A stretch of 64,000 bases of DNA from Chitinophagaceae bacterium (GTDB lineage Bacteria > Bacteroidota > Bacteroidia > Chitinophagales > Chitinophagaceae): positions 1 to 64,000 of the forward strand of contig JAIXOJ010000005.1 in the NCBI GenBank assembly GCA_027486835.1, written 5' to 3'. Positions 1-44,023 of this stretch are shown here, piece after piece (within the stretch, counting starts at the first letter, position 1; each line of letters starts with the position of its first letter). Position numbers and translations under genes: made by a program. The notes below the pieces were generated by a model. The model searched no databases, had not been told where the DNA came from, and was given only the letters and a program-made list of their open reading frames with translations.

Positions 1-105
1 AGAAACATCCTTGTTTCTCAAAGAAACATCCTTGTTTCTCAAAGAAACATCCTTGTTTCTCAAAGAAACATCCTTGTTTCTCAAAGAAACATTCTTGTTC
101 CTAAA
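1..105. repeat. 21-bp tandem array with internal inverted repeat (5 copies, may continue left)
   Basis: Copies begin at 1, 22, 43, 64 and 85, an exact 21-bp pitch. The first four are identical; the fifth is degenerate (attcttgttcct). Each unit holds the inverted repeat AGAAACA-TCCT-TGTTTCT followed by CAA. The array touches the left edge, so its true size is unknown. It lies downstream of the dnaE stop codon. The pitch equals two DNA helical turns, so every palindrome faces the same side of the helix. There are no unique spacers, so it is not CRISPR. It resembles the array at 16717-16899 in pitch and palindromic design but not in sequence. Confidence 0.95.
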
Positions 106-227
106 ACCACTTGAAGCCATTTACTTGATTACTTACCGGGTTCACCTAAATATGCTCAGCATTTACCAGACTACTACCACTTAACTATTTCAGCCTTAAC
201 CATTAATATTAAGAGTTACTTTATTTT

Positions 228-16302: not shown

Positions 16303-16665
16303 TCACCCCAATTTTTTAAAAACTATTTCTTTATAAATTGCCAACTCTTTTTGCAAATCGCTTATTTCTTGTTGCAGGTTAGCTATAGCTGTATCTTTTG
16401 AAATGTTTTTTTCCGTGTTTATATTTTCATCTTCAAACTTACCATTCAGATCTAAGCATTTGCTTAAATGTTCGAAAAAATCGAAATTAAGTGCTTGGCT
16501 CAAATCCCATAAAATACGGCATTGCAAACTGGCTTCTTTGGTGTAGCCAAACACTGTAAGATGGCTTTTGCCAATAAGTTTGCCAATGCTATTACGCGTG
16601 TTGTGTGTTTCGTAAATTTTTTGGTCCATTAAACTGCCCAAATGGGGCATCTTCTTTTGGGTCAT
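16303..16665 (-). CDS. small XRE-like HTH protein with C-terminal coiled coil
   Basis: A 120-residue protein. Residues about 13-70 resemble a divergent XRE helix-turn-helix: IYETHNTRNSIGKLIG, then TVFGYTKEASLQCRILWDLSQ and ALNFDFFEHLSK, the last being a form common at the end of XRE domains in Bacteroidota. Residues about 92-115 are a heptad-patterned helix (IANLQQEISDLQKELAIYKE), probably a dimerising coiled coil. The ATG at 16665 is preferred to the TTG at 16680. Nine phased palindromes (16717-16899) begin 52 bp upstream of this start, in the promoter position. Inference: it is a DNA-binding protein that binds these sites cooperatively and controls itself. DNA binding itself is not proven by the sequence. 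Confidence 0.65.
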   Translation of the reverse strand: MTQKKMPHLGSLMDQKIYETHNTRNSIGKLIGKSHLTVFGYTKEASLQCRILWDLSQALNFDFFEHLSKCLDLNGKFEDENINTEKNISKDTAIANLQQEISDLQKELAIYKEIVFKKLG

Positions 16666-16716
16666 ATACTTTTTTGGCAATAAAAGTAGGATATTTATTG
16701 TTTTAGCAAAACATTT

Positions 16717-16899
16717 TATGCTATTAGCATAAAAAACTATGCCATTAGCAAGAAAAACTATGCTATTAGGATAAATAATTATGCTATCAGAATAAACAAC
16801 TATGCTATTGGAATTAATAACTATACTTTTAGAATAATTGACTATGCTATTGGCATAATTCTATATACTAATAGCATAAATAACGATGCTATTAGCATA
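16717..16899. repeat. nine palindromes at exact 21-bp pitch (candidate operator or parS-like array)
   Basis: Fifteen-bp sites begin at 16717, 16738, 16759, 16780, 16801, 16822, 16843, 16864 and 16885, always 21 bp apart. The first is the perfect odd palindrome TATGCTATTAGCATA (TATGCTA-T-TAGCATA). The others are variants such as TATGCTATTGGCATA and TATACTAATAGCATA. The 6-bp spacers are A-rich (AAAAAC, AATAAC and similar). The sites vary in sequence while the spacing is invariant. No gene is inside. It lies directly upstream of the XRE-like/coiled-coil gene and between it and the plus-strand gene at 17215. Confidence 0.97.
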
Positions 16900-17214
16900 A
16901 AAGTCAATTAACCATTAAACAAAAATTTTGGCAAATATTGCTTTATTGATGTTTTGTAGTTTGGGTTTCCGACTACACCAGCTAGCACAAGCTTGTAGTT
17001 TGTGACCTTCGATTAGTTCTTCCAAGCTAGTCCACGTTACTCGCTATAATCTATATTTGCAAGCACACGCATTTCGTATGTGAATTCGCTTAGAGTATTT
17101 TTATCAAGTTTGAGAGTAAATTTAGAGTTATTGCATATTTGTAATTTTTTTTTAGCGAAGCCACATGCAGAACATGTAAGCTAGAAAAAAATATAAAGAA
17201 TAGAATAAAACAGC
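16900..17214. other. intergenic stretch between the palindrome array and the TraB-like gene
   Basis: About 315 bp without a gene. It should carry the promoter of the plus-strand gene at 17215. No repeat, RNA or clear promoter consensus was recognised. Confidence 0.5.
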
Positions 17215-17877
17215 ATGCATAATATAATTTTTATTGGTACAGTACATATTGAAAAGGGAAAATGTAATTCCGATGAATTATATAAAATTATTAAGTCCAT
17301 AAATCCTGATGTGATTTTTGATGAAATCCCATCTTCATTTTTTAATGCATTTTATTTGACTAAAACTCAAAGTACTGTAGAATCCAAAGCAATTAATCGA
17401 TACTTAAAAAAACATGACGTTGAAATTATTCCTATAGACTTAGATACAAGTCAAGAAATATCAAAATACCAAAATGAATTTGATTCTATCTTCTTTTCAT
17501 TCTTTAAACACGAGGATTATATTAAGTTAGATAACGAGAAAGATGAATTGATGATTCATGAGGGTTTTAAGTATCTCAATAGTGATGCGTTTATAGACTA
17601 TTTAAATAAAAAGATAGAGATAGAAAAAAGGATTTTAGAATCAGAACCAGATAATGAAAGATTACACAATTCTTATAAATTATTTCAAATAGAGGCAAAG
17701 GACAAACGAGAAAACGCAATGCTTCAAAACATTTACAATTACAGCAAAGAAAATCAATATAACAAAGCCGTTTTTTTACTTGGTTCAGAACATAGAAGAT
17801 CAATTATTCCCAAAATTGAAGAATATAAAAAGATGTCTACCATAAGATTAAATTGGACTATGTATGGTGAAAACTAA
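17215..17877 (+). CDS. TraB/TIKI-like (EreA/ChaN superfamily) protein
   Basis: A 220-residue protein without signal peptide. It shows three features of the TraB/PrgY and TIKI fold: an N-terminal IIFIGTVHIEKG (residues 4-15) with the GxxH motif, followed by INPDVIFDEIP, where an acidic residue normally follows the second strand; an R-E-x-x-M segment (KRENAMLQNIY) matching the family's RDxxM; and a C-terminal FLLGSEHRRSI matching GxxH. This superfamily includes metal-dependent proteases and haem-binding or esterase-like proteins, so the reaction cannot be named. The length is below that of TraB proteins, and no membrane segment is present. Local sequence is more AT-rich and lysine-rich than the flanking genes, which may indicate transfer. 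The ATG at 17215 is the only sensible start. Confidence 0.55.
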   Translation: MHNIIFIGTVHIEKGKCNSDELYKIIKSINPDVIFDEIPSSFFNAFYLTKTQSTVESKAINRYLKKHDVEIIPIDLDTSQEISKYQNEFDSIFFSFFKHEDYIKLDNEKDELMIHEGFKYLNSDAFIDYLNKKIEIEKRILESEPDNERLHNSYKLFQIEAKDKRENAMLQNIYNYSKENQYNKAVFLLGSEHRRSIIPKIEEYKKMSTIRLNWTMYGEN

Positions 17878-43757: not shown

Positions 43758-43801
43758 TTTAGCACCCCATCCGCAAACGTAAATCGGACTTGATTGGCTT
43801 T

Positions 43802-44023
43802 AACCGAGAACTCTGTCAGCTTCAAGTAACCTGCATGGCGTTAACCGAGAACTCGGTCAGCTCCAAGTAGCCTGCATGACGTTAACCGAGAACTCGGTCG
43901 GCTCCAAGTAGCCTGCATGGCGTTAACCGAGAACTCTGTCAGCTTCAAGTAGCCTGCATGGCGTTTACCGAGAACTCGGTCGGCTCCAAGTAGCTTGCAT
44001 GGCTTTGACCGAGAACTCGGTCA
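43802..44023. repeat. 41-bp tandem array of ACCGAG-AA-CTCGGT palindromes (6 copies)
   Basis: The palindrome core ACCGAGAACTCGGT (or ACCGAGAACTCTGT) recurs six times at exactly 41-bp spacing: 43803, 43844, 43885, 43926, 43967 and 44008. The linker GGCTCCAAGTAGCCTGCATGGCGTT is nearly constant. Variation alternates between CTCGGTC and CTCTGTC with linked changes (GCTCC versus GCTTC), so units fall into two subtypes. The array ends in TCAATATTTTTC. It lies 3-prime of the DUF6261-like gene and upstream of the membrane protein gene. No ORF is inside. Confidence 0.95.

Follow-up and report, generated by a model that had tools for sequence, protein, structure and literature searches.

A family of small XRE-like genes in Bacteroidota and the phased site arrays upstream of them

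A family of small genes in the Bacteroidota, termed XRE-cc here, mostly has on its 5' side a row of short sites with a period of 21 or 22 bp, and among the matches with an E-value below 1e-20, from 17 genomes, such an array lies upstream in 26 of 27 (the exception being L079) and downstream in none. One member of the family lies in the window, by which is meant the whole stretch of 64,000 nucleotides of a Chitinophagaceae genome that was analysed. The reading we favour, with a probability of about 0.55, is that the array is a private set of binding sites for the adjacent protein, placed beside that protein's own putative promoter, where both the binding and the autoregulation are what we infer from the comparison of sequences.

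The nine-site array of the window and its gene

Nine palindromic sites of 15 bp, all of the TATGCTATTAGCATA type, occupy positions 16717..16901 of the window (no strand assigned) at a pitch of 21 bp, as judged from the sequence itself, Tandem Repeats Finder and shuffled controls. They start at 16717, 16738, 16759, 16780, 16801, 16822, 16843, 16864 and 16885, and across 16717-16899 the grid is unbroken, with 21 bp in 8 of 8 intervals. Tandem Repeats Finder returns a period of 21 with 0% indels, and the lag-21 self-similarity upstream of the gene scores 71.7, where the runner-up lag reaches 9.0 and the maximum over 40 dinucleotide shuffles is 13.3. The claim of the original prediction, that nine palindromes stand at exactly 21 bp before a small gene, is thereby borne out, as is its remark that the phase stays invariant while the sites drift. 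Only the first site is a perfect palindrome, and the other eight retain 4-6 of 7 arm pairs. The mean top-base frequency is 0.88 in the palindrome columns versus 0.76 in the linker. The repeat segment reaches to 16694, and a degenerate tenth site (16696..16710, no strand assigned) stands in register, agrees with the first and best site at 11 of 15 bases and overlaps a possible −33 element.

No second cluster of the window motif was found elsewhere in the same genome. Outside the array one site occurs with 1 mismatch and 14 occur with 2, and as these 15 matches (at most 2 mismatches) compare with 11 for the reversed control, a scattered regulon is not seen at this level. A lone near-perfect site, with 1 mismatch to the pattern, lies at 7880-7894 of contig C164 of genome G000, and is a possible second target.

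Palindromes in a row could fold in RNA, and some arrays stand near a start codon, so that the array might act as a row of hairpins in the mRNA leader. This seems very improbable: over 28 palindromic arrays, complementary changes of both arms number 42 against 49.3 expected if the arms change independently, and so no hairpin is apparently being kept, while 8 of the 9 window sites have lost 1-3 of their 7 arm pairs, it is not evident what a strict 21-bp phase would mean for RNA, and the possible promoter lies downstream of the array. That the 21-bp period is coding DNA for a heptad repeat is hardly credible at all, for although one frame runs through the window array without a stop, no start-to-stop ORF of 60 codons overlaps it. 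For the family at large the same idea was rejected on the 22-bp arrays upstream of relatives, which no single reading frame repeats.

The XRE-cc gene itself is on the minus strand at 16303..16665, running from an ATG at 16665 to a stop at 16303 (120 codons, with a TTG at 16680 as an alternative start), and the array begins 51 bp upstream of it. Its product has the motifs PH.G, SLQ..ILW and DLQKE.AIYK in common with its relatives, and alignment with these suggests an XRE-like helix-turn-helix (HTH) and a C-terminal coiled coil. As to the divergent HTH originally proposed for a protein of 120 residues, the 120 codons are there and weak matches to HTH_3 or HTH_26 come from five relatives (E 6e-4 to 0.15, in no case reaching the curated cut-off), but the window protein gives no Pfam HTH match up to E 1. 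Against solved structures the family profile finds XRE proteins weakly (3omt, E 0.0036), and in the family libraries (Pfam and others) six family members have no match above cut-off. The PADLOC models leave the window protein unmatched, the best relative reaching E 0.0017 with a candidate (PDC) model. A HigA-like type II toxin-antitoxin was rejected because the antitoxin family leaves the window protein unmatched (two relatives reach E 0.075 and 0.11, far below cut-off). Among 72,556 plasmid records none matches the window protein, and a phage origin was also set aside, as the protein is unmatched in the phage collection and one viral_contigs scan with A5 was likewise without a relative. Purifying selection acts on the protein, dN/dS being 0.06-0.17 in nine pairs of relatives, of which three have a saturated dS above 1.

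Between the array and the gene a possible promoter can be read on the minus strand (16681..16710), comprising TTTG at 16710-16707, an 18-nt spacer and TACTTTTA at 16688-16681, the last having one mismatch to TAnnTTTG, which we take to be the Bacteroidota consensus. Of 49 array loci, 16 have an exact TAnnTTTG (the −7 box) in the interval from the array edge to the start codon, where 4.5 are expected, and the window is absent from the 16 because of its one mismatch. To judge from this box, in part of the family the array is positioned just upstream of a predicted promoter. On the other side of the array a divergent gene of 220 amino acids (17215..17877, plus strand), read as an ORF and lacking a Pfam match above cut-off, takes the position that a helical-bundle gene has in other loci but has no resemblance to one, and the window locus is without a helical-bundle gene.

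Linkage of array and gene across genomes

The relatives come from searches at the level of genus, family, order and phylum, with E-values taken from profile A2 for L007-L046 and from A3 otherwise. The matches used are those that brought a new locus, plus 39 retrieved by place; about 14 matches in the E range 4e-10 to 1e-7 were left aside, as were most of the weaker matches that lacked a locus, contig-end fragments (G032 C28, C85) and L017 are uncounted, and the upstream counts omit L016 (222 bp of upstream DNA available), L069 and L071 for their short upstream DNA. In the class with E 1e-20 to 1e-12 an upstream array is found in 10 of 13 (downstream in 1), in the class 1e-12 to 1e-9 in 11 of 30, and among the weaker matches, mostly other XRE proteins by our reading, in 6 of 57 (L028 and L062 being the same locus and counted once). 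Across these loci 54 arrays are upstream against 13 elsewhere, two of the 13 with period 22 or 42. The array threshold was fixed at 14, which in AT-rich loci lies below some shuffle maxima, and therefore a strict count is also given, where the best lag has to be 21 or 22 and above every shuffle; 24 of the 27 strongest matches pass, L022, L079 and L106 failing.

In the genome of the window, 9 of 10 family copies have a 21-, 22- or 42-bp array within 700 bp upstream (222 bp for L016; Fisher p 9e-9 versus ordinary ORFs); L105, which has two stops in frame, has no array, and L104, with one stop, a weak one. Among control ORFs, judged by a criterion similar though not identical to that for the 27 strongest matches, an array within 700 bp upstream occurs for 49 of 536 in this genome (9%) and for 21 of 293 sampled from other genomes. 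The idea that array and gene belong together has thus fared well, from the 26 strongest matches to the nine copies of one genome. As to homologues that might lack phased palindromes the outcome is divided: most close homologues have arrays, but in L079, L055, L108 and L081 none is detectable, and a scan of named genomes, whose 12 loci include ones from Limnovirga soli and Chitinophagaceae MAGs, yields five that are new and long enough (L227-L230, L232), of which two exceed all 40 shuffles in their lag-21 signal and three stay within them. L079 has no upstream array but does have a downstream lag-21/14 repeat. Repeats with a 14-bp period (2 x 7), reminiscent of heptamer repeats, lie downstream of L224 (about 3.5 kb after the match start), L061, L079, L094 and L114.

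The period of family arrays is 21 or 22, the unit recurs in about 4 to 22 copies, and its consensus varies by locus. The units are palindromic in 24 of 46 family arrays versus 9 of 49 other arrays of the window's genome, which leaves about half of the family arrays short of significance as palindromes. Apart from the same loci and one array that two contig ends probably divide between them, comparison of array words brought out nothing substantial that family arrays and the other arrays of this genome have in common.

An array by itself is not rare in this genome. A sample of 1.06 Mb, which takes in contigs picked for family members (C39, C205, C211) and contig starts that are possibly enriched for repeats, holds 58 arrays with period 20-22 or 42 and 15 with 40/41; this amounts to about 70 arrays per Mb (period 20-22 or 40-44 bp), mostly each with its own sequence, and the uncommon thing is rather the steady link of the array to this gene family. 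Samples of 84-100 kb from other genomes have 0 to 6 such arrays. A member of five tested families is within 800 bp of only 9 of the 73 arrays, whereas 9 of the ten members of these families in the sample have an array. The description of gene and array as a self-contained module could therefore not be upheld, given also the unrelated genes with such arrays and the partner gene that faces the XRE-cc gene across the array in 17 of 46 loci. That the array might occur as often without the gene is true of generic arrays in this genome, which, however, are for the most part non-palindromic.

This abundance raises the prospect that the 21-bp tandem repeats are minisatellites, which arise and turn over by a mechanism of their own with the gene merely a frequent neighbour. 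The arrays are about as numerous where genes start towards them as where genes end towards them (61 versus 57, hence no orientation bias), which with their abundance means that the 21-bp period is not special to the XRE-cc family; 9% of ordinary ORFs have one upstream, and the turnover of arrays is fast in the pairs L050/L051 and L078/L124. Such an origin accounts for the abundance and for the 21-bp period, but not for the fixed 5' position in the 26 strongest matches, nor for the excess of palindromes in family arrays, which a minisatellite alone does not predict, nor for the covariation of motif and recognition helix in close pairs, and as a full explanation we regard it as quite unlikely.

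Several contigs of the assembly start or stop inside an array of this class (L143-L202 and the window). The window has at its contig end a second palindromic 21-bp array (1..106, no strand assigned, from Tandem Repeats Finder), AGAAACATCCTTGTTTCTCAA in five copies, a separate locus of the same class. The AGAAACATCCTTGTTTCTCAA unit, which recurs at L309 1460-1674 and L315 1461-1643, also terminates contig C69, upstream of a 157-aa helical-looking, lysine-rich protein, and is present on C123. A 41-bp tandem array of 5.6 copies lies in the window at 43788-44022, between two other genes, and one 21-bp unit recurs on different contigs of this genome (L190:9238-9464 and L202:651-1000).

Divergence of sites and proteins

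How closely the sites follow the protein was judged in 46 loci with an array above the score threshold. For pairs of at least 70% protein identity (n=16) the mean array similarity is 0.52, with three pairs at 0.21 or less, and for pairs below 40% identity it is −0.22 to −0.26, also inside one genome; as an exception, the window protein and L021, 32% identical, have a common array motif. Over 40 pairs of at least 40% identity the identity of the recognition helix follows array similarity with a rho of 0.835, and with a partial correlation of 0.677 once the remainder of the protein is taken into account, 0 of 2000 permutations being as high. Over all 1035 pairs no relation is seen (rho 0.045, partial 0.006), so that the signal is confined to close pairs, which are few, of common ancestry and not independent, and for the 22 pairs that reach 50% identity the recognition helix is no better a predictor of the array than the remainder of the protein (partial 0.617 versus 0.681). 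The covariation in close pairs is as would be expected if the protein binds the array.

A trio, L050, L051 and L053, with proteins 76-84% identical, illustrates the point. In L050 and L051 the recognition helix opens with KR and the arrays contain AAC...GTT; in L053 the helix opens with GQ and the array core resembles CTTTAAAG. Between L050 and L051, as between L078 and L124, the flanks align at 76-81% while the array itself does not, its period being unchanged, and array turnover is therefore fast. In L076/L077 and in L227-L230 sites and phase are aligned between genomes, with the lag-21 signal of L228 and L230 within the shuffle range. In the paralogue pairs L112/L113 and L117/L120 the duplicated DNA comprises array, gene and 10-78 bp, as if the module moves as a unit. 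The comparisons suggest a matched pair in which the protein and its sites evolve in step.

Proposed mechanism, helical neighbours and known systems

From fold to function, the favoured reading would run as follows, and we infer each of its steps: the HTH fold, the binding, the dimer and filament, the use of the promoter, and the autoregulation with its direction. A dimer of the XRE-like protein, joined by the C-terminal coiled coil, would bind each palindrome, and because the spacing of the sites, 21 or 22 bp, amounts to two helical turns, the dimers would be placed on one face of the DNA and could bind cooperatively as a short filament. Since the array abuts the putative promoter of the gene, the first job of such a filament would most likely be autoregulation, and a second gene across the array, where present, may be controlled as well. 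The site sequence would drift fast and the recognition helix with it, and with both drifting together each copy would come to have its own specificity.

That second gene is of one of two probably helical types in 17 of the 46 XRE-cc loci (9 and 7 clustered by blastp and one, L112, by eye), "helical" being our reading of the sequence and not a structure. These two types are the only clusters of three or more in the flanks of the 46 loci, and ten array-flanking proteins of helical kind gave no Pfam or NCBIfam match above cut-off. Among 30 loci of type A (HB-A, about 165 aa) the array is downstream of the stop in 20 and upstream in 1; of 30 loci of type B (HB-B, about 310 aa), 28 have an adjacent array (20 upstream, 8 downstream) and 8 an XRE-cc gene nearby. 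These counts include the seeds (L249; L279-L282) and without them become 19 of 29 downstream for type A and 24 of 26 adjacent for type B. In a further family, HB-C (query L190), 12 loci have enough upstream DNA, and 10 of these show a 21-, 41- or 42-bp array there, three being measured from a partial match and L244 omitted. Palindromic arrays make up 11 of 18 for type A, 1 of 19 for type B and 6 of 10 for HB-C. There are also 21-bp arrays beside helical-bundle genes without any XRE-cc gene, and convergent reading frames, not all of them certain, enclose the array in 8 of the 26 helical-bundle loci examined. As some arrays are apparently between convergent genes, a role as operator or at a promoter cannot cover the whole class.

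HB-A, HB-B and HB-C (L235-L248, L249-L308) are thus three uncharacterised families regularly flanked by 21- or 22-bp arrays, and type B has up to 13 matches in one genome. In L285, L287, L288, L300 and L301 a different small XRE-like family is divergent across the array from HB-B genes.

These neighbours bear on the chief competing idea, namely that the array is a cis-acting site, where the protein, the array and, where present, the helical-bundle protein form a nucleoprotein body on the model of a partition complex or chromosome anchor, with regulation as a by-product. The helical genes across the array, the type A arrays downstream of the stop, palindromic in 11 of the 18 tested, the arrays between convergent frames that serve no promoter, and copy numbers of up to about 22, more than simple autoregulation needs, all speak for it. 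Set against this, no NTPase or motor gene recurs, because the two helical types are the only clusters of three or more in the flanks; many copies per genome with different motifs are unlike a partition locus; the window protein has neither plasmid nor phage matches; and the XRE-cc arrays are 5' of the gene in nearly all strong matches, with a promoter-like box in a third. A cis-acting site is on balance unlikely as the primary role.

A bolder reading, which is doubtful as it stands, would have the Bacteroidota harbour a large class of self-matched modules, each a phased array of 4-22 sites spaced by two helical turns with an XRE-type protein that has a co-evolving recognition helix and often a fast-evolving helical-bundle protein, that multiply within genomes into mutually blind specificities and act as nucleoprotein sites, not only as operators. 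Such modules might be seen as a bacterial counterpart of the fast co-evolution of centromeres and their proteins, or of incompatibility groups.

Should the protein bind the array, there would be dozens of natural protein and site pairs in one phylum, perhaps mutually orthogonal and with multivalent arrays, offering a natural experiment on the joint change of recognition helices and sites and perhaps a supply of orthogonal regulators. The abundance of 21-bp intergenic repeats would then be explained in part, and a first handle gained on several uncharacterised, probably helical families associated with arrays.

The layout of a gene with a phased private array was originally recognised as no described system, and no description was found in the open literature either, most subscription papers and bioRxiv preprints being outside the scope of that search. 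Among repeats known from this phylum, the TAACTGA heptamer direct repeats occur in Beggiatoaceae, Cyanobacteria and Bacteroidetes (PMC4679880), and a minisatellite has been reported inside a MITE of Porphyromonas gingivalis (PMC4596501). The heptamers are alike in being abundant intergenic tandem repeats, some Bacteroidetes included, and unlike in that they are one fixed 7-bp word, non-palindromic, and that a linked DNA-binding gene is not described in the part of the source consulted. The MITE minisatellite likewise consists of tandem repeats in a Bacteroidetes genome but, as far as the consulted part of the source goes, belongs to a transposable element and has no private sequence per locus.

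The XRE repressors with multiple operators, the iterons and the ParR/parC repeats would each seem alike only in part. Repressors of the Cro/C1 (XRE) kind, such as lambda CI at OR and OL, act at 2-3 operators. The C-proteins of restriction-modification systems are XRE-type with multiple operators, according to the part of the source consulted (PMC6237814). What they and the Cro/C1 repressors have in common with XRE-cc is the XRE-type HTH (predicted here), palindromic sites by the protein's own promoter (putative here), and autoregulation (assumed here), whereas in place of 2-3 operators there are here about 4-22 on an exact 21- or 22-bp grid, a coiled coil of the protein's own and many mutually different copies per genome.

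Plasmid iterons are tandem sites near two-turn spacing, private to an adjacent DNA-binding protein, and would resemble the arrays in both respects, although the sites here are palindromes; an iteron-controlled replicon was rejected, as the window protein and five relatives have no Rep-type match in the libraries searched and the window protein no plasmid match. The ParR-parC and TubR-tubC partition systems have a small DNA-binding protein on phased repeats with gene and site together. Partition of the Par or Tub kind was rejected for want of a recurrent NTPase neighbour when the flanks of the 46 loci were clustered, the recurrent neighbours being the two probably helical families. With ParR-parC and TubR-tubC the XRE-cc loci thus have in common the small DNA-binding protein (here predicted), the phased repeats and the pairing of gene with site, and they differ from them in being present in many copies per genome.
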